64,000 bases of DNA, from assembly GCA_021498095.1 (NCBI GenBank), contig JAIZWK010000001.1, forward strand, positions 1,475,666-1,539,665, read 5' to 3'. Source of the DNA: Candidatus Harpocratesius repetitus. Its GTDB lineage: Archaea; Asgardarchaeota; Lokiarchaeia; Sigyniarchaeales; Promethearchaeaceae. Each line of letters starts with the position of its first letter. The first letter of the stretch is position 1. A model generated the notes under the pieces. It saw only the letters and a program-made list of their open reading frames with translations. It searched no databases and was not told the DNA's origin. A program made the position numbers and the translations under genes. This document shows, piece after piece, positions 17,310 to 34,273 of the stretch.

Positions 17310-17702
17310 TTAAAAATTTCCACTGCAAGTGTTGATAAGTTTATAAAACATATCTTGGACATTCTCACCTGTCTTAGCTGAACATTCCATGAATAAGAAA
17401 CCATGTTTCATAGCAAAATCTAATCCTTCTTCTCTACTGACTTCTCTATCAAGATCTATTTTATTTCCTACTAATAGAGTGGGTATTTTTCCACAGTTAT
17501 CTTCTAATTCTTGCATCCATTTAGAAAGATTTTCGAAAGTTCGCCTATTACTCACATCGTAGCATAGAATTGCAGCACGTGCATCTCTGTAATAGATACC
17601 CCTTATTCGATCCTAGAGAAGATTGAATCTTCCATTTGTAATAATAACCATATTAAAATACCCATCTCCAAATTTCAAATGGATAATTAATAATGGATAT
17701 TT
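17310..17702 (-). pseudogene. Broken Rab/Ras-like small GTPase
   Basis: The C-terminal two thirds of a Rab-like GTPase are readable: GIYYRDARAAILCYDVSNRR, then the G4 motif VGNKIDLD and the G5 motif ECSAKTGENVQDMF, ending at 17310. Upstream in the same frame the sequence reads FGDGYFNMVIITNGRFNLL, then a TAG stop (17613-17615), then DRIRG. The DTAGQE switch II motif is missing, and no P-loop (GxxxxGKS) is found between here and the insertion-sequence remnant that starts at 17720. An 81-residue frame remains open but lacks nucleotide-binding G1-G3. I read it as a pseudogene damaged at its 5' end, probably in connection with the nearby insertion. Confidence 0.75.
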
Positions 17703-20041: not shown

Positions 20042-21409
20042 ATGGCGAAAGTAGCTTTTATGCAACTCGCTTCATGTTGGGGCTGTCATCAGTCACTACT
20101 TGATGCACATCTGACCCTTTTGCATGTACTTCCCGAATTAGAATTTGTTTATTGGCCTGCAGTGGTTGATTTCAAACTAGATGATTTGAAAGGATACCCT
20201 GACAGTTCAGTAGATGTTGGATTCTTAGAAGGGTTTTGTCGGACTGAAGCAGATGTTGCCAATGCAAAATTAATGCGGCAAAAATGTAAAATTATTGTGG
20301 CAATGGGCTCCTGTGCTGTATTAGGGGGAGCACCAGGGATGGCAAATCTCTTTTCTCGAGAAGAGTTAGAAGCCCGAAAGTTTATGGATGAAGAATTTGT
20401 GGATAAAGGTTCAGTGGTTCCAACTGAACATGTTCCTAAAATATTAGATGCAATTCCTGATACACATGATGTTATTAAAGTTGATATCGATTTACCTGGT
20501 TGTCCACCTAAAACAGGTAATATAATTGGGCTCATTGCAGCAGTGTTGGGAGAAATTGATACGAAAGTGGATATTTCCAAAAGCATGTGTGATGTTTGTC
20601 CATTACAAAATTGCTTACTGGATGAAAATAAGTTATGTTATGGACCAATTACAGCTGCAGCTGATCCAATTGGAAGGATTGCGGAAGGATATCCTGTTTT
20701 GGGTGAATTTGGCCTAACTAATGCTGTACATCAAGCAAATGCTGAAAAACTATTTTCAAAAATCACAAGCAAACCCATGGATCATTCAGAAGTTCGCCAA
20801 TCTGTTGAAGCGCTTATGTTCATACTTGGTAGTAATCCTTTAGGATTTTTAGCTAAAAAAGCAGATCCTATACGAAAAGTCCGATTAGATCCTGAAAGTC
20901 TTTCCATGAAATCAGTTCTTGATAAAGAAATTGTTGATTTCACTGCTGATGGATATCCTGAAATTGTTAACCATATTATTGGGGCGGTTATGGCTGATCT
21001 CAAACAGAATCCAGAATATGATGATTCTGCAAAAACAGTTTGCAGTTCATGTGAAAGAAACTTAAAGGATAAAGAAGTTGTTCGTTATAAACGAGATTAT
21101 GAAGGTCTGCCTGATCAAGAAACTTGTTTCTTATTACAAGGGTATGTCTGTATGGGGCCGTTAACTACAACTGGGTGTGGTGCGACTTGTATTCGAGCAA
21201 ATTCACCTTGTTTGGGATGTTATGGTCCAGCTGCAAATGTTGATGATTATATCAGTAAAGCTACCAGCTATTTCCCATCAATTTGCACAGATACTCCAGA
21301 AAATATTACTGCATTCTTTAAAGATACTGCAGGATTATTTGGACGCTTCTGCATCCCAACCAGCAAACTTGGGCATAAAATATCTGATTCAAAAATGGAG
21401 GATAAATAG
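20042..21409 (+). CDS. vhuG: Group 3c [NiFe] hydrogenase small subunit, enlarged
   Basis: 455 residues against about 300 for typical MvhG/VhuG. The electron-transfer subunit next to the NiFe site. Proximal cluster ligands are C12 and C15 (CWGCHQSL), C91 (GSCAVLGG) and C154 (LPGCPPKTG). The usual C-terminal cluster region appears at the end: C334/C337, C362, C370 (GYVCMGP), then GCGATC and SPCLGCYGP. Between these lies an insertion of about 150 residues. Its first part (CDVCPLQNC at 183-191 and LCYGPITAAAD at 198-208) reads like a shortened duplicate of the same cluster motif, and its second part is helical without Cys. The gene heads the operon; hdrC follows after 17 bases. Family is certain; the role of the insertion is unknown. 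Confidence 0.93.
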   Translation: MAKVAFMQLASCWGCHQSLLDAHLTLLHVLPELEFVYWPAVVDFKLDDLKGYPDSSVDVGFLEGFCRTEADVANAKLMRQKCKIIVAMGSCAVLGGAPGMANLFSREELEARKFMDEEFVDKGSVVPTEHVPKILDAIPDTHDVIKVDIDLPGCPPKTGNIIGLIAAVLGEIDTKVDISKSMCDVCPLQNCLLDENKLCYGPITAAADPIGRIAEGYPVLGEFGLTNAVHQANAEKLFSKITSKPMDHSEVRQSVEALMFILGSNPLGFLAKKADPIRKVRLDPESLSMKSVLDKEIVDFTADGYPEIVNHIIGAVMADLKQNPEYDDSAKTVCSSCERNLKDKEVVRYKRDYEGLPDQETCFLLQGYVCMGPLTTTGCGATCIRANSPCLGCYGPAANVDDYISKATSYFPSICTDTPENITAFFKDTAGLFGRFCIPTSKLGHKISDSKMEDK

Positions 21410-21426: not shown

Positions 21427-21945
21427 ATGGTAAAAGTTGATCTTAATTTTAAACGCGCCGTCTTGGATAAATTGGTTGATGGTGACAAAATAAGCTATTG
21501 TTTTCAATGTGGAAAATGCAATGATGTGTGCCCGATTTCAGCACGTTGGGGTTCTAGATACAACCCTCGCGATATAGTTCTTTTTTCAGCATTAGGATAT
21601 AAAGAGGCATTAGTTAATGCAGTCGTCAAAGATCCCTTTATTCTATGGGGATGCACTACATGTGAGACATGTGATGAAAAATGCCCAGCAGAAATTCCAA
21701 TTACGGATATCATTTCTATGTTGAAAAATCTTGCTGTATCTCTTGGGGTAACTCCTGATTTTTATCCAAGTTCTGCCCTCCAAATAATGGAACATGGTAT
21801 GGCAATTCCAGTACAAGCTGCAGTTGAAAAACGAAGAGAAAAGTTAGGAATTGGTGTTGCTCCAGAAATTCCTGTTTCTGAAGTTCAGAAAATCATGCAG
21901 GCAACTGGGATTGAAAAACTCGTAAAAAAGGAGGAAACTGCATAA
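21427..21945 (+). CDS. hdrC: Heterodisulfide reductase subunit C
   Basis: 172 residues. Two [4Fe-4S] binding motifs are visible: CFQCGKCNDVCPI near residue 24 and CTTCETCDEKCP about 50 residues later, with the usual helical stretch between. HdrC relays electrons between HdrA and HdrB. It lies within the vhu operon, and its stop overlaps the hdrB start (TAATG, one base shared) with AAGGAGG (21928-21934) inside its 3' end as the hdrB ribosome-binding site. Tight translational coupling indicates a stoichiometric HdrBC pair. HdrA is not in the window. Confidence 0.93.
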   Translation: MVKVDLNFKRAVLDKLVDGDKISYCFQCGKCNDVCPISARWGSRYNPRDIVLFSALGYKEALVNAVVKDPFILWGCTTCETCDEKCPAEIPITDIISMLKNLAVSLGVTPDFYPSSALQIMEHGMAIPVQAAVEKRREKLGIGVAPEIPVSEVQKIMQATGIEKLVKKEETA

Positions 21946-22829
21946 TGATAGAATATTTATTATTTCCCGGATGTTTCATTCAAAATCGAATCCCATTTAT
22001 CGAAGCTTCAGCTAAATTTGTTTTTGAACAATTAGGAATTCAACAATCTGCTGGGAAATTTGGATGTTGTCCCAATCCTGTCGGATTAAGATTTGTGGAT
22101 GAAAAAACTTGGGCGGCTCTTGGCGCAAGGAATATTGTTGAAGCAGAAATGGAAGGAAAACCAATTATGTCTCTATGTAATGGTTGTTATCAATCATTAT
22201 CTGTTGTTGATCATGATTTAAAACACAACAGTAAACTCAAAGATGAAGTAAACGGTATTTTGGCAGAGATAGGAAAAGAATATCGTGGAACTGCAAGAAT
22301 TGAGCATTTTGTGAGGGTTTTACATGATGAAGCCGGTTTAGAACTCATTAAAAGTAAAATTACTCGTCCATTAACCGGATTAAAAGTTGCACTTCACCCT
22401 GGTTGCCATTATGCTCGACCATCTCATATTTTACACGGTGAAGATCCCTTCAATCTGACTTATCTTCGCGATTTAGTCGAAGCAACTGGTGCCACAGTGG
22501 TTGATTATCCACAAGAAAACTTATGTTGTGGTAATGGAGTCCGAAACTCAGATCCATACACTGCTAATACAATGCTGAAAGCAAAAATTGATGGTGCACT
22601 TTCAGCAGGTGCAGATTGTTTTGCTGTTAATTGTCCTGCATGCTTCCAGCAAATGGATGCTGAACAGCGTAATCTGAAAGAATTAGCAGAAGAAGGTCAA
22701 GAATATAAATTTCCCACATTCTATATCACAGAATTATTAGCAATGGCTATGGGAAAAAGTCCAAAAGAAATTGGTGTGAATTTTCACCGTAATAAAGGAA
22801 AAGAAGCATTAGGAAAGGTGGGATTATAA
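21945..22829 (+). CDS. hdrB: Heterodisulfide reductase subunit B
   Basis: 294 residues, the normal length. Two CCG domains each with the Cys set for a noncubane [4Fe-4S] cluster: GCCPNPVG with CNGCYQS, and HPGCHYARPS with LCCGNGVR and CPACFQQMD. HdrB is the catalytic subunit that reduces a disulfide (CoM-S-S-CoB in methanogens). Here no methanogenesis gene is present in the window, so the substrate is open. Overlaps of one base with hdrC before and vhuA after show one mRNA. The gene order hydrogenase small subunit-HdrC-HdrB-large subunit is an interleaving of the two complexes and argues for one physical assembly. Confidence 0.94.
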   Translation: MIEYLLFPGCFIQNRIPFIEASAKFVFEQLGIQQSAGKFGCCPNPVGLRFVDEKTWAALGARNIVEAEMEGKPIMSLCNGCYQSLSVVDHDLKHNSKLKDEVNGILAEIGKEYRGTARIEHFVRVLHDEAGLELIKSKITRPLTGLKVALHPGCHYARPSHILHGEDPFNLTYLRDLVEATGATVVDYPQENLCCGNGVRNSDPYTANTMLKAKIDGALSAGADCFAVNCPACFQQMDAEQRNLKELAEEGQEYKFPTFYITELLAMAMGKSPKEIGVNFHRNKGKEALGKVGL

Positions 22830-24166
22830 TGAGTCCAGATAAAGTTTATGAAGTTGAACCGGTTACTCGGTTAGAAGGTCACGGCGGATTAAGATTAGTG
22901 ATGTCTGAAGATGGAAAGAAAGTAAAAGATGTGCAATTTAATATCACCAGCACCCGATTTTTCGAAAAACTCTGCGAAGGTCGTTTTGCTGAACATGTTC
23001 CCAGAATCACCAATCGAATTTGTGGAATTTGTCCTGTTCCTCACCATTTAGCTGCTACCAAATCAGTAGAAAAAGCATGGGATGTAGAAATTCCATCAGC
23101 TGCATATAAATTGCGACAGCTATTTATTAATGCCAAACAATATAGTTCACATCTGCTTCATTTTTATGCATTGGCTGCTCCAGATTTTCTCTATGGTCCA
23201 TTTGCTCCAGCAGCAAAAAGAAATGTTGTTTCAATAATTAGAGATATGCCTGAAGTTGGTGCAATGGCATTGAAAATGATGGATTTTGGACAAAACATTT
23301 GCACTGCAATTGGAGGAAAAGCTGTTGGTCCAATAGCTGGAATTGTTGGAGGTATGCGCAATCCTCTTTCATCTGATCTACGAGATGGATTTATTGCACA
23401 AATTCCAGAGCAATTGGAATATGTTAAAAAGACAGTAGAAATTGCTAAAAAGGTTGTTACTGATTATTGGGATGTAATTGCAAATTTAGCTGTTACTGAG
23501 ACATATTATTGTGGTGTCGCAAAAAAGGTAAATGGTGAGCTTGTTCACGAGATTTATGATGGAGACTTGATTTTTGTTACCCCTGAAGGTGAGAAAAAGG
23601 TATATGATCCTCAGAATTATCTTGAAGTTATTGGAGAACATGTTCCTTCCCATTCATATGCGACTCATACCTATTATAAACCAGCCGGATATCCTGCAGG
23701 AATTTATCGAACGAATTCTTTAGCTATGATTAATGCATGTGATCGAATGGCAACACCTATAGCCGAAGATGCTCGAAAGGAAATGGTGAAAGCATGTTTA
23801 GGGGATGATGGAAAGGTGATCCACAACACATTCGCTTACCATTGGGCACGTATCGTGGAGACAGTCGAAGCTTTCGAGTTATGTGTTCAGTATCTGAAGG
23901 ATCCAGAAATTTTAAGTACTGATATTAAAACTCTTGACGTGCAACCAAAAGCAGGTCGTGGAGTGGGGATGGTGGATGCACCACGTGGTAATTTAATTTA
24001 TGACATGACTACGGATGCAGAAGGAATTTGTCGTAAGTTAAATATTCTTGTAGCCACCAATCACAACATTGCGGGTATTGAAAAGAGCGTGAAACACGCC
24101 GCCCAACAGATCTTTGAGCAAGATGTCTTATCTAAAATAAAATTACCCGATCCTTGGCTCAAATAA
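22829..24166 (+). CDS. vhuA: [NiFe] hydrogenase large subunit lacking the C-terminal Ni motif
   Basis: 445 residues. The N-terminal signature EPVTRLEGHGG and the L1 motif RICGIC (C65, C68, then PVPHH) are intact. The C-terminal L2 motif DPCxxCxxH, essential in every single-chain large subunit, is absent: the protein ends ...KIKLPDPWLK with a stop at 24166. Thirty-three bases on, a separate small gene (24200-24349) carries this motif with selenocysteine. That is the VhuA/VhuU split known from Methanococcus. The start overlaps hdrB by one base; AGGTGGGA is the ribosome-binding site. The subunit has no tail of its own to be trimmed by the maturation protease, since the tail is on VhuU. Confidence 0.95.
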   Translation: MSPDKVYEVEPVTRLEGHGGLRLVMSEDGKKVKDVQFNITSTRFFEKLCEGRFAEHVPRITNRICGICPVPHHLAATKSVEKAWDVEIPSAAYKLRQLFINAKQYSSHLLHFYALAAPDFLYGPFAPAAKRNVVSIIRDMPEVGAMALKMMDFGQNICTAIGGKAVGPIAGIVGGMRNPLSSDLRDGFIAQIPEQLEYVKKTVEIAKKVVTDYWDVIANLAVTETYYCGVAKKVNGELVHEIYDGDLIFVTPEGEKKVYDPQNYLEVIGEHVPSHSYATHTYYKPAGYPAGIYRTNSLAMINACDRMATPIAEDARKEMVKACLGDDGKVIHNTFAYHWARIVETVEAFELCVQYLKDPEILSTDIKTLDVQPKAGRGVGMVDAPRGNLIYDMTTDAEGICRKLNILVATNHNIAGIEKSVKHAAQQIFEQDVLSKIKLPDPWLK

Positions 24167-24199
24167 ATTCAGAATAAACTCATAAAATGAGGGAACATT

Positions 24200-24349
24200 A
24201 TGGTAGAAGTTACAGATAATATTCTCAATCTGCTCGAAATGGTAATTCGCTGCTATGATTGCTGACTTTCATGTGCAGCTCACATAACCATTGTCGATCC
24301 GGATGGCACTGAGCGTGTAATTCGGAAACTCGAAGTAGATTGCGGATAA
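24200..24349 (+). CDS. vhuU: Selenocysteine-containing small hydrogenase subunit (in-frame UGA)
   Basis: 49 residues if the TGA at 24263-24265 is read as selenocysteine (U22). ATG 24200 follows GAGGG (24189-24193) with ideal spacing. The first half reads VIRCYDCULSCAAH: compared with the usual R.YDPC.SCA.H of [NiFe] large subunits, Pro becomes Cys and the first Ni ligand Cys becomes U22; C25 and H28 are kept. Translation past UGA continues ITIVDPDGTERVI... to TAA at 24347. Cleavage after H28 would leave a 28-residue peptide, close to the mature VhuU of Methanococcus, and remove 21 residues. U22 and C25 would bind Ni together with C65 and C68 of VhuA. Ordinary gene callers stop at TGA. The motif match makes a chance stop very unlikely. 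Confidence 0.93.
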
Positions 24350-24357
24350 TTGGTTAA

Positions 24358-24425
24358 TCGCCCTACTCAATGCATTTTTCTCACAAACATGGGAGAAAAA
24401 GAAGAGTCTTGTCCAAGATGGGCGA
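24358..24425 (+). promoter_or_regulatory. Candidate SECIS element in the vhuU 3' UTR
   Basis: It begins 9 bases after the vhuU stop. Nested stems: TCGCCC (24358-24363) with GGGCGA (24420-24425); ACTC (24365-24368) with GAGT (24404-24407); TTTTTCTC (24375-24382) with GAGAAAAA (24393-24400). Between the last two, the 5' side holds AATGCA and the 3' side GAA; the apical loop ACAAACATGG has an AAA run. A 3' GA right after the upper helix, an ATG-like 5' strand and apical A residues recall the eukaryotic-type SECIS reported for Lokiarchaeota, although the exact AUGA core is not present. Position and structure fit; sequence core is only partial. Confidence 0.65.
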
Positions 24426-24439
24426 AAAAAACAAATTTC

Positions 24440-24459
24440 GGTTTAAAAACCTTTTTTTT
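24440..24459 (+). terminator. Probable terminator of the vhu-hdr operon
   Basis: GGTTT and AAACC (24440-24451) can form a short hairpin, followed at once by eight T residues. It lies 15 bases after the SECIS-like hairpin, so the whole hairpin would be included in the mRNA. Confidence 0.55.
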
Positions 24460-25256: not shown

Positions 25257-27130
25257 GACACTGTTCAAAAAGATATATGACTTCCAAATTAACTTATTAA
25301 ATATAGAATATACTTTAGAATACTTAAGATCGCCTATTTTTTCCCCATTTCCCTCTTTAACGGCATATAATGGCGCCACGATGCGGATAGCGCCGTATAT
25401 GAAATCCCAATGTTGTCTTCATCGAAATTTCATGAGCAAAAAACAATGTTGTTCGCTTCTTAAGGGGAAATAACAAATCCAAATAGTTTCTGTTGTTTAA
25501 ATTTCCCCCCAATTGCTCAAAAGGAGATTGATCATTATGAATGCCTGTATATCGTGGTGTTGTATTATAATATAATCTGAAAAGTTCACACAACTGCGTA
25601 GTACCTTCAACTGTTTGGAATAATTTACTTAAATCAAGAAGAGGCCGAAAAATACCGAATATACGCTCAATCGTATTGCTGTTTTGGTAATTTGAGGCAA
25701 GATCATTTTTATTTTGTAAAGAAAAAATTTGAGGATTATTTTTAATCATTTTGTGAAGTTGAGATGCATATACATATGGTGATTTTTCTAGTCGAATCAT
25801 AAATTTTTGAAGATTAGATTTAAAGTTAATGGAATGATCTTTTAATAGATGATAAAATTCTTTTCCAAGTCGGCAAGATTGGAGATATATATTTTTAAGT
25901 TTTTTAAGTGATTTCACAATGCAAGAAAGTTCTTTAGATTTCTCATCTCTCGTTTTTCGAGCCTTCTTAAGTGTTTTAATAGTATCTTTTAGAGATTCTA
26001 CTCGCCTTTTGATTCGTTTTTCTAAAGCAATTAGTTTTTGATCCATAGTTTTGGTTCTTCCACTCTTTGAGTTTCGTTTAAATAATTTCAATTTTTGACG
26101 TTCTATACGATCTTTTGCCAATTTTCTTTCCCAATCGGCTTTTTGAGAAACTAACTTAGTTATTTTTCCACGAAGTTTTTCCAGAACTTTGGATATTCCA
26201 TCTCTTTTCTTTTTCTCCCGTTCACATGTGACCTTTATTTTCTTTATATGTCTCATTGATTCTCGATAAGCATGTACATGACAACCAAGATGTTGGGCAT
26301 GATGGAAGATTTCTGGAATTACAGTTTTATAAGCTTTATAGAGATCGCTAATAACAACTTTTATATTGCAGAATTTCTTGGAAATTGGTTTTAAAAACTT
26401 TGTAATCGATGCAGCTGTTCGATCGGGCGCATATTTTAGATCTAACAAATACTGAGAAAATTTCTCTGCTGCACCCAAAATAGAATAATTTCTTCCTTGA
26501 AACACCTCATCTGTTTCAGTAGTATTAACTTTGGTTCGGATTTCACAATCTAATTTTCGATTCATCGCTTTTGCTTTATTACCTGCTATATTTTGTATCA
26601 TCTTAATTTTATGTTTGGTCAGGTCTAATCCATAAATTAATTTGAGATGTTCCCTGATCTTATTAAGCGAAAGCCCTTTTAATTGAAGATCGGTAACAAT
26701 ACGACACAAAGTCGTTTCATCAACTGCTAAAATAGCAATAAAAACTCTTTGAGTTAATAAAATGAAAAAGTATTTAATTTTCGACATGTTAAATATTTTT
26801 GAGCGTAGCAATCTGGAAGCCTCGGTTTTCAGAAAATTATTGAAATTATTAGCACTTTTTCTTAATGCTCGCTCACTTTTGAACTTTTCACCTTGCCGAC
26901 AAAATTAAGAGACTCTTCGGAAACGTCCTTCCATGCATCTACGAGAAAAGCATTAATTATCTTGGAAATTACAGATTTTATCTTAGAATTCTTGTTTTGA
27001 TGTTGTTTTCTCGTTTATAGATTGTTTCAAACAATTGAATAGGAAAAAAATAGTCGAACTCAACGGTTCTTTGAATTTTGACTGTTTTCGAATAATGAAA
27101 TGAAAGTCACAGGTTTTCTTGAACAGTGTC
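25257..27130 (-). mobile_element. Second insertion sequence, 8-bp target duplication
   Basis: Terminal inverted repeats GACACTGTTCAA (25257-25268) and TTGAACAGTGTC (27119-27130) continue imperfectly for about 27 bases, both reaching a TGACTT. CTTTTTTA is repeated directly outside both ends (25249-25256 and 27131-27138), the target duplication. The element is 1,874 bp with one transposase on the minus strand and about 340 bases of noncoding DNA between the transposase start and the right end. The ends resemble IS6-family ends (GGCACTGTTGCAAA) more than those of copy 1, but the transposase is much longer than IS6 enzymes. Confidence 0.9.
25357..26787 (-). CDS. DDE transposase with long coiled-coil insertion
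   Basis: 476 residues from ATG 26787 (MSKIKYFFILLTQR); a TTG at 26811 is the upstream alternative. Catalytic residues appear as D in TETDEVFQG, D in VISDLYKAYK and E in NTIERIFGIF. Between the second and third about 200 residues are Lys/Arg/Glu-rich helix (KKIKVTCEREKKKRDGISKV and on), almost surely a coiled coil. The C-terminus ends in a Q-rich NQSPFEQLGG-like stretch common in transposases. The gene is intact. I do not assign an IS family with confidence. Confidence 0.85.
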   Translation of the reverse strand: MSKIKYFFILLTQRVFIAILAVDETTLCRIVTDLQLKGLSLNKIREHLKLIYGLDLTKHKIKMIQNIAGNKAKAMNRKLDCEIRTKVNTTETDEVFQGRNYSILGAAEKFSQYLLDLKYAPDRTAASITKFLKPISKKFCNIKVVISDLYKAYKTVIPEIFHHAQHLGCHVHAYRESMRHIKKIKVTCEREKKKRDGISKVLEKLRGKITKLVSQKADWERKLAKDRIERQKLKLFKRNSKSGRTKTMDQKLIALEKRIKRRVESLKDTIKTLKKARKTRDEKSKELSCIVKSLKKLKNIYLQSCRLGKEFYHLLKDHSINFKSNLQKFMIRLEKSPYVYASQLHKMIKNNPQIFSLQNKNDLASNYQNSNTIERIFGIFRPLLDLSKLFQTVEGTTQLCELFRLYYNTTPRYTGIHNDQSPFEQLGGNLNNRNYLDLLFPLKKRTTLFFAHEISMKTTLGFHIRRYPHRGAIICR

Positions 27131-29673: not shown

Positions 29674-29916
29674 ATGTGTTTAGCTATTCCCGGGAAAATT
29701 TTAACACTAGAAGGTACAAGTGCGCTTGCGGATTTTGATGGTACCCAAAAAAAGATAGTTACTGCCTTGTTACCCCGAGTAAAAGTGGGTGATTATGTAA
29801 TTGTCCATGCGGGCTATGCTATTGAAACAATCAGCCAAGAGGCCGCGGCGGAATCCATTGCGCTTTGGCGAAATATGATCTCTGATGGTCTTATAGATAA
29901 ATCAAATTATGTCTGA
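29674..29916 (+). CDS. hypC: Hydrogenase assembly chaperone HypC
   Basis: 80 residues, the normal size. Begins MCLAIPGKI, with the essential N-terminal Cys2, followed by the OB-like barrel (VGDYVIVHAGYAIETIS). HypC works with HypD to carry the Fe(CN)2CO unit to the large hydrogenase subunit; Cys2 contacts the iron. ATG 29674 follows a TATA-like CATATATAG (29649-29657). The convergent hypF ends about 100 bases away. Part of the scattered hyp cluster 29.6-36.8 kb. Confidence 0.96.
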   Translation: MCLAIPGKILTLEGTSALADFDGTQKKIVTALLPRVKVGDYVIVHAGYAIETISQEAAAESIALWRNMISDGLIDKSNYV

Positions 29917-32494: not shown

Positions 32495-33535
32495 TCAACA
32501 AATACGAGGTATTAGTTCGCCCATGGGTTTTTCAACAATACGTTTACCCCCTAATGGGGTTTCCATAATTACCATATCGGGTTTCTCTGCTTTAACCTCT
32601 CCAATCAATACAGCATCACGTCCTGAAGTTATTTGTTGTAATTTTGTAAGGACTTCTTCAGCGTATTCTGCTTCTACACAGAGGATTGCTTTTCCTTCAT
32701 TTGCGATTTCTAGTGGTTCTAAGCCAAGAATGTCTGCAATAGATTGAACTTCCCGTTTTACGGGGATTTTATTCTGTTCAATCCAAATACTTACATTCGA
32801 TTTATGTGCCCACTCATTTAATGCCGCTGCTAATCCTCCACGTGTAGGATCTTTCATGGCTTGAATACCTGAAGTTGTTTCAATAATGGGAAGAAGATCA
32901 ATAAGACAACGTTCATCTGATTCGAGGGGTGTTTCCAATGCAAAATTTTGCCGTTGTGCAATAAGGGCTGCTCCATGGTCCCCAATGCTGCCCGTAAGAA
33001 TTATTTTCGATCCTGGTTTGCAATTTGCATCAAAAATACGGCGATTTTTAGGTTTTATTCCAATTCCAGTTGTTGCAATAATAACATCTTTTAACGCACC
33101 TTTAGGTAATACTTTAGTGTCTCCAGCTATAATCGCAACATTTGCCTGTTTTGCAGTCTGATTAAATGACTTGATTATTTTATCCAGTAATCGAAATTCT
33201 GTTCCTTCTTCAATGAATATTGTTGATGTTATTGCTAATGGACGGGCACCCATCATTAATAAATCATTTACGGTGCCAGCCACAGATAAACTTCCCAAAT
33301 CTCCTCCGGGAAAGAACAGTGGTTCTACTGTGTGACCATCTGCTGTGATCACAATCTCTTCATCTGAATTTTCTAAAGGAATAGTAGCACCATCATCATA
33401 TGAATCTACACCAATTCCATTACCAATTTTCTTGATTAAGATTCGATCAGTGATAAAGTGAATGAGGTGGTCTTGCATAATCCCACCACCACCATGTCCG
33501 AGTTGAACAATCTCATCTAATTTATGTTTTTCCAA
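32495..33535 (-). CDS. hypE: Carbamoyl-dehydratase HypE
   Basis: 346 residues. The AIR-synthase-type fold shows the N-terminal GHGGGGIMQDHLI and ADGHTVEPLFFPGGD (ATP/Mg site) and ends with the signature PRIC, whose last Cys accepts the carbamoyl from HypF and is dehydrated to thiocyanate. The start is TTG 33535 (TTGGAAAAACATAAA), preceded by an AGGGTG element; no other start fits before GHGGGG. It is upstream of hypF with 16 bases between. Confidence 0.96.
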   Translation of the reverse strand: MEKHKLDEIVQLGHGGGGIMQDHLIHFITDRILIKKIGNGIGVDSYDDGATIPLENSDEEIVITADGHTVEPLFFPGGDLGSLSVAGTVNDLLMMGARPLAITSTIFIEEGTEFRLLDKIIKSFNQTAKQANVAIIAGDTKVLPKGALKDVIIATTGIGIKPKNRRIFDANCKPGSKIILTGSIGDHGAALIAQRQNFALETPLESDERCLIDLLPIIETTSGIQAMKDPTRGGLAAALNEWAHKSNVSIWIEQNKIPVKREVQSIADILGLEPLEIANEGKAILCVEAEYAEEVLTKLQQITSGRDAVLIGEVKAEKPDMVIMETPLGGKRIVEKPMGELIPRIC

Positions 33536-33655: not shown

Positions 33656-34273
33656 ATGGATATATCTGAAAAATATTCCCACATTCGCCAAGATTTATCT
33701 TCTATATTTGAGAACAAGCCCAAGTTTTTGTTATTAGGAATCGGAGAGAATAGGATGGGAGATGATGGTGCAGGACAGTATATTAGTTTTTATCTTGACA
33801 AGTTTAACAAATATTCCAAGATTGCAATAATAAATGGGGGTATTACTCCAGAAGAACGACTGGATGAAATTATTCAATTTCAACCCGAATTCATGTTGAT
33901 TTTAGATGTCATTGATTTACCTGCACCTGCAGGAACTGTAGATTTATTTGAAGAATCACGAATGCAAAACTATCTACCAATTTCATCCCATAGCATGCCA
34001 CTTCCTGTGTTTGTAGATAGATGTCGACAATATATTCCAGAGATTCAAATGAAATTATTAGGTATTAAGCCTTATTCTTTAGAATTTTTAGATCATTACT
34101 CTTTATTTAAAGAAGATATATATGATTTGGATGAAAAAGAAGCAAATCCAAATATTCCCTTTTATGATTTTAATTTAACTAAAGAAATGAAGGAAATATG
34201 TGATAATTTAGTGCAGATATTCGCTGAACTCTTTCAAGAATATTATGAAATAGATAATTCTGACAAAAGATAA
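33656..34273 (+). CDS. Hydrogenase maturation protease (M52/HycI family)
   Basis: 205 residues. GIGENRMGDDGAG is the family signature (usually GxGNxxxxDDGxG; here Glu in place of the usual Asn), with metal-binding Asp residues in GDDG, LDVIDLPAPAG, and a His in SSHSMPL. These enzymes cut the C-terminal tail of the large subunit after the Ni-binding His once nickel is in place. In this window the only tail that fits is on VhuU (21 residues after H28), because VhuA has none. It is divergent from hypE. Family is clear; the substrate is inferred. Confidence 0.9.
   Translation: MDISEKYSHIRQDLSSIFENKPKFLLLGIGENRMGDDGAGQYISFYLDKFNKYSKIAIINGGITPEERLDEIIQFQPEFMLILDVIDLPAPAGTVDLFEESRMQNYLPISSHSMPLPVFVDRCRQYIPEIQMKLLGIKPYSLEFLDHYSLFKEDIYDLDEKEANPNIPFYDFNLTKEMKEICDNLVQIFAELFQEYYEIDNSDKR

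Follow-up and report, generated by a model that had tools for sequence, protein, structure and literature searches.

VhuU, a UGA-containing hydrogenase mini-gene of Candidatus Harpocratesius repetitus, and the three-way-junction architecture of its putative SECIS element

The gene for the hydrogenase large subunit VhuA of Candidatus Harpocratesius repetitus raises the question of how the nickel site of this enzyme is completed. Translation of the gene confirms the claim of the initial annotation of this locus that the protein lacks a DPCxxCxxH nickel motif at its C-terminus. It ends in KLPDPWLK and keeps the N-terminal RICGIC motif (Cys65, Cys68). The closest solved chain, 9sfi_g (E 7e-113), belongs to a split enzyme. 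The VhuA copy present in our window (the whole 64-kb stretch of DNA that was analysed) is the only one in the single-contig genome, which likewise holds a single VhuU.

A large subunit without its nickel motif and a small UGA-containing cistron

The genes are arranged in the order vhuG-hdrC-hdrB-vhuA-vhuU, and hypC, hypE and the gene for an M52 protease lie 5-10 kb downstream (Table 1). The features that mark a group 3c enzyme, a VhuG small subunit and HdrBC genes in the cluster, are both found here. We are highly confident of the explanation developed below taken as a whole, namely that the locus would encode a [NiFeSe] hydrogenase of group 3c (Vhu/Mvh-type) that is split and is linked to subunits of heterodisulfide reductase, like that of other Lokiarchaeia.

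Table 1. Features of the hydrogenase locus (positions are those of the window)
Feature	Position	Strand	Basis
VhuG-like small subunit, long C-terminal extension	20042..21409	+	NCBIfam NF045875 VhuG, 231.7 bits; Pfam Oxidored_q6
HdrC-like subunit	21427..21945	+	TIGR03290 CoB_CoM_SS_C, 93.3 bits
HdrB-like subunit	21945..22829	+	TIGR03288, 258.4 bits
VhuA large subunit, 445 aa	22829..24166	+	NF041785 VhuA, 433.9 bits, full model length covered
GAGGG ribosome-binding site, 6 nt upstream of ATG	24189..24193	+	sequence directly
vhuU, 49 codons + TAA, UGA as putative Sec at residue 22	24200..24349	+	frame, relatives, pN/pS, NCBIfam
Nickel motif RCYDC-U-LSCAAH (Sec22, Cys25, His28)	24248..24283	+	translation
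UGA codon, predicted to be read as selenocysteine	24263..24265	+	TGA aligned in all Sec relatives
C-terminal tail, 21 residues, predicted removal after His28	24284..24346	+	processing inferred from hydrogenase maturation
SECIS three-way junction (putative)	24358..24425	+	top-scoring descriptor match on either strand of the 64 kb; covariation in relatives
SECIS P1 closing stem	24358-24363/24420-24425	+	
SECIS core AUGCA opposite GA	24370-24374, 24401-24402	+	
SECIS P2 kink-turn hairpin	24375-24382/24393-24400	+	AAA in loop
SECIS P3 third hairpin	24406-24410/24415-24419	+	
Terminator-like GGTTT/AAACC, then eight T	24440..24459	+	sequence directly
HypC maturation chaperone	29674..29916	+	TIGR00074, 82.2 bits, over cut-off
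HypE	32495..33535	-	TIGR02124, 381.9 bits, over cut-off
M52-type hydrogenase maturation protease	33656..34273	+	TIGR00072, 61.2 bits (over cut-off); HycI, 74.9 bits (under cut-off); Pfam PF01750

Two further reading frames of the window, both on the minus strand, were noted by eye. An 81-codon frame (17310-17555), possibly truncated or frame-shifted, looks like the second half of a small GTPase of the Ras/Rab kind, with NKID and SAK motifs, and a transposase-looking frame of 484 amino acids (25357-26811) lies directly past the hydrogenase cluster.

The small frame behind vhuA starts with an ATG at 24200, contains an in-frame TGA at 24263-24265 and ends with a TAA at 24347-24349; it reads MVEVTDNILNLLEMVIRCYDC-UGA-LSCAAH, followed by the 21-residue tail. 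The extent of the frame, the UGA in the place of the first nickel Cys, the spacing of Cys25 and His28, the presence of a ribosome-binding site and the length of the tail are all as the initial annotation had given them. The defining traits of VhuU are present, since we find a separate short cistron with the pattern R..D.UxxCxxH and a UGA at the first nickel position, together with a partner large subunit that lacks the C-terminal motif. The NCBIfam VhuU model NF041786 recognizes the protein (E 6e-15) with 54.7 bits, under its curated cut-off of 70, so that routine annotation would tend to miss vhuU, in agreement with the earlier claim that standard annotation overlooks it; judged by this score, the protein is a homolog outside the methanogen equivalog. 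The gene itself puts the annotation right, as VhuA appears inactive for as long as vhuU is not read past its UGA.

The initial annotation had pointed to related Asgard genomes as the place to look for the same frame, and there it is conserved. TGA-bearing VhuU frames were matched in more than 50 related genomes (E 1e-11 to 1e-28); the same frame is present in most of 59 relatives and in most of the sampled Lokiarchaeota and Thorarchaeota genomes. A VhuU profile matches 199 of 228 genomes across the phylum, a count that includes fused Cys versions. Close relatives have no sense codon in this place and the genome has no second vhuA; the two together were what the initial annotation had named as fatal to its claim. 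One might suspect a Cys codon that was misread as TGA during sequencing or assembly, given that the genome (one contig of 4.36 Mb, 93.6% complete, with a contamination estimate of 4.5%) is probably a metagenome assembly. However, about a hundred independent assemblies have TGA at this very codon, which refutes the idea; we consider its probability negligible.

Past the UGA, pN/pS amounts to 0.42 in frame, whereas the two alternative frames give 1.0 and 1.3; upstream of it, the in-frame value is 0.10. VhuU shares 84-92% of its residues with the proteins of the closest relatives, from which it is separated by few amino acid changes and many silent ones. These data also bear on the proposal that vhuU encodes a leader peptide with a regulatory role, or is a relic, and that its UGA is a true stop. 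The tiny size of the frame would suit such a role, but coding evolution runs on to the distal stop codon and the VhuA of this genome has no other source of a nickel motif, which makes this proposal highly improbable. In several relatives vhuU sits after hdrC and hdrB, apart from vhuA; as other genes can come between the two, vhuU is an independent cistron rather than a readthrough extension.

Two peculiarities were seen in the collected loci. The vhuU of one relative (genome G010, locus L014) carries an extra in-frame TAA in its tail (VVDE-TAA), so that the copy is broken or the sequence is in error. For several Thorarchaeota vhuA copies (L178-L189), nothing recognisable as vhuU turned up in the next 1.5 kb or so downstream.

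Selenocysteine machinery and the proposed assembly of the nickel site

The initial annotation had made its claim dependent on selenocysteine (Sec) machinery elsewhere in the genome, whose complete absence would have refuted it. The machinery is present: the genome encodes tRNA-Sec (59.8 bits, anticodon UCA), SepSecS (443 bits), SelB (247 bits, over its cut-off) and a SelD with an in-frame UGA of its own (HGUSCK). PSTK stands apart in this list, with a best match in the genome search that is weak (94.8 bits versus a cut-off of 290.5). A second hydrogenase-type selenoprotein gene, VhuD, contains two in-frame UGAs (C1:3155960-3156328; locus L270). Homology, the Sec machinery, the single VhuA and a SECIS-like element thus all support the claim of a VhuA/VhuU pair split at a selenocysteine.

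Mariotti reportedly described VhuU/FrhA as an Asgard selenoprotein in 2016. The split selenoprotein is, as the initial annotation had expected, largely known for this group of organisms: VhuU has been reported in Asgard archaea (PMC11227280; PMC11291895), where it occurs in about 68% of the Sec-using genomes (PMC11227280). The VhuU/FrhA selenoprotein is treated by Huang 2024 (PMC11227280), and in Atabeyarchaeia and Freyarchaeia it measures about 50 amino acids (PMC11291895). The present gene shares with the published ones the family and the organism group, with a putative eSECIS-like element in the 3' UTR (PMC11227280; PMC11291895), and it is an ordinary member of the known Asgard VhuU family.

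In VhuA/VhuU of Methanococcus, an F420-non-reducing [NiFeSe] hydrogenase (NF041785/NF041786), and in the solved split enzyme PDB 9sfi/9t1s, a separate small Sec subunit likewise completes the large subunit, with the same UxxCxxH spacing. However, the motif of 9sfi is RAYDPX compared with RCYDCU in the window, the putative SECIS element of the window is of the Asgard and not the methanogen type, and the scores lie under the NCBI equivalog cut-offs. The small chain 9sfi_M comprises 27 residues versus the 28 predicted here, has an X at the Sec position and ends within one residue of the position matching His28, which supports a mature VhuU peptide of 28 residues.

For Sec insertion itself, protease trimming, assembly and enzyme activity we infer the following scheme. 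VhuA would contribute the two N-terminal nickel cysteines, and the separate 49-codon vhuU would contribute Sec22 and Cys25. The UGA at 24263 would be decoded as Sec by archaeal/eukaryal-type machinery, directed by a SECIS element positioned 9-76 nt past the stop codon. Trimming of VhuU after His28 is probably the task of the candidate M52 protease; the resulting 28-residue peptide would then dock onto VhuA.

RNA architecture behind the vhuU stop codon

The initial annotation contained no SECIS element, so that the one described here is new relative to it. It reads TCGCCC-tactca-ATGca-TTTTTCTC-acaaacatgg-GAGAAAAA-GA-aga-GTCTT-gtcc-AAGAT-GGGCGA (24358-24425). Asgard eSECIS-like elements of types I and II possess a kink-turn core, an upper stem and an apical loop, next to which there are a lower stem and an internal loop (Huang 2024, PMC11227280); they are recognized by GA opposite a [G/A]A core, an upper stem of 7-15 bp and a loop of 8-20 nt. 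A review ascribes one apical loop to the Lokiarchaeota SECIS (PMC9499178). The element of the window resembles the Asgard model (PMC11227280) in having a predicted kink-turn core, an upper stem of 8 bp, a loop (10 nt) containing AAA, and a lower stem; its core is atypical and can be drawn as AUGC opposite AA, or as AUG(C)A opposite GA with a bulged base. The model lacks, however, the extra hairpin kept here 3' of the core, which turns the element into a three-way junction. No mention of this third hairpin or of the junction was found in PMC11227280, PMC11291895 or PMC9499178, and in the literature compared, which leaves out Mariotti 2016, the three-way-junction SECIS and the clade-wide DCU motif (see below) both appear undescribed.

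A descriptor scan of both strands of the 64-kb window gave the SECIS a score of 44.8, with the runner-up at 25.6. In 20 simulated 64 kb sequences this score was never attained, although the best of them came close (44.0) and the descriptor had been shaped after the family was seen. No Rfam SECIS family matched the vhuU 3' UTR, even at E 10. By minimum free energy, the fold of positions 24350-24440 taken in isolation does not stand out (z -1.35), so that the case for the SECIS rests on comparison and not on energy.

Among the relatives, nearly all collected 3' UTRs contain the P3 hairpin 3' of the core (e.g., CCC-UUGCAU-GGG), and the P1 closing stem brackets the core hairpin and P3 to form the three-way junction. 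In most relatives the vhuU stop codon, UGA, coincides with the UGA in the AUGA core, and the last codons form the 5' strand of P1. We rejected this overlap as a novelty, as for Lokiarchaeia it is already stated in PMC11227280, which cites Mariotti 2016. In contrast, vhuU of the window ends in UAA, and its SECIS, displaced downstream, has an AUGC core; in its genus and the neighbouring genus the vhuU stop is UAA or UAG and the SECIS lies further downstream.

Because combined 3' UTR alignments misplaced the closing stem, we analysed the groups apart. In the lokiarchaeal vhuU set (26 distinct sequences), 97% of the cells are paired, both sides have changed in 14 of the 20 pairs, none of 500 shuffles scored as high and slid controls reached at most 47%; this alignment was padded by hand around the proposed stems and therefore leans towards them. 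The 19 thorarchaeal vhuU sequences were aligned by MAFFT unaided: the paired fraction is 84.7%, the covariation score exceeds that of all 500 shuffles, slid controls stay at or below 45.5%, and RNAalifold arrives at the same three helices without being supplied with a structure. For lokiarchaeal selD (18 sequences, MAFFT) the paired fraction is 96.9%, with double changes in 11 of 16 pairs. Covariation in these three sets supports the three-way junction as a predicted fold.

The junction was also seen in messages other than vhuU, those of selD and vhuD (3' UTRs L210-L239 and L270-L289). The vhuD 3' UTRs parse alike, with P1 pairs such as CTCGATGG/CCATCGAG, CCGAAT/ATTCGG and ATGTGTTT/GAACACAT, which were fitted one by one and carry no shuffle control. 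The VhuD message of the same genome has a canonical AUGA SECIS within such a junction.

The AUGC core allows the reading that the gene is degenerating in this genome, with a mutated SECIS, a UGA that mostly terminates translation and a hydrogenase that is inactive or poorly made. This core does differ from the AUGA of the relatives L002-L004, and also from that of the same-genus relative. It can be read as a single bulged C within the AUGAA/GA geometry of L010, or as a C that faces A in the second pair of the kink-turn. The same geometry, with A for C, exists in relatives such as L010. Furthermore, all three helices are intact despite a complete change of sequence, and the differences from the closest VhuU proteins are, as described above, mainly silent. 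We regard degeneration as very improbable.

This architecture bears on the question of how eukaryote-like SECIS elements could function in archaea that lack SBP2. A lokiarchaeal vhuU SECIS was silent in Methanococcus maripaludis (PMC11881835), and the junction gives reason to revisit this result and to ask whether the construct held it whole.

The cysteine preceding selenocysteine

The solved split enzyme has a proline in front of Sec (DPU), and VhuU of the window carries DCU instead. This motif, to which the initial annotation had drawn attention, is real, but the notion that it is peculiar to this genome had to be abandoned: Cys directly precedes Sec in 70 of the 74 distinct Sec copies of Asgard VhuU and is thus the rule in this family. 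Its codon is TGC in 92 and TGT in 53 cases (redundant set, 152 loci); with both codons in use, it is the amino acid that is conserved and not the bases. The exceptions are DPU in L081 and L082, both from the family of the window's organism, DFU in L085 and DNU in L087. The RC ahead of the motif is usual without being universal (RN, RA, RS and RI occur), and DP is found in the fused Cys enzymes of the same phylum and in the solved methanogen enzymes.

A Cys-Sec pair is found in thioredoxin reductase. By analogy, the conserved pair at the nickel site could, as a speculation, form a reversible Se-S bond. Combining this with the RNA data, we tentatively propose, while considering it rather less probable than its negation, that the working SECIS of Asgard archaea may be a P1-P2-P3 junction that vhuU, selD and hdrA-vhuD messages have in common and that often closes over the stop codon, that P1 and P3 may be needed for recoding, and that the vicinal Cys-Sec pair might protect the enzyme through such a bond. 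As a difference at a [NiFeSe] active site, the Cys beside Sec is simple and open to testing.

Three genomes contain separate small vhuU-like genes of the Cys type (L084, L094 and L098) with the sequence DCCLSCSAF, which indicates that the Cys before the nickel residue is independent of Sec. In these genes, Phe replaces the final His at the position where the protease would cut.
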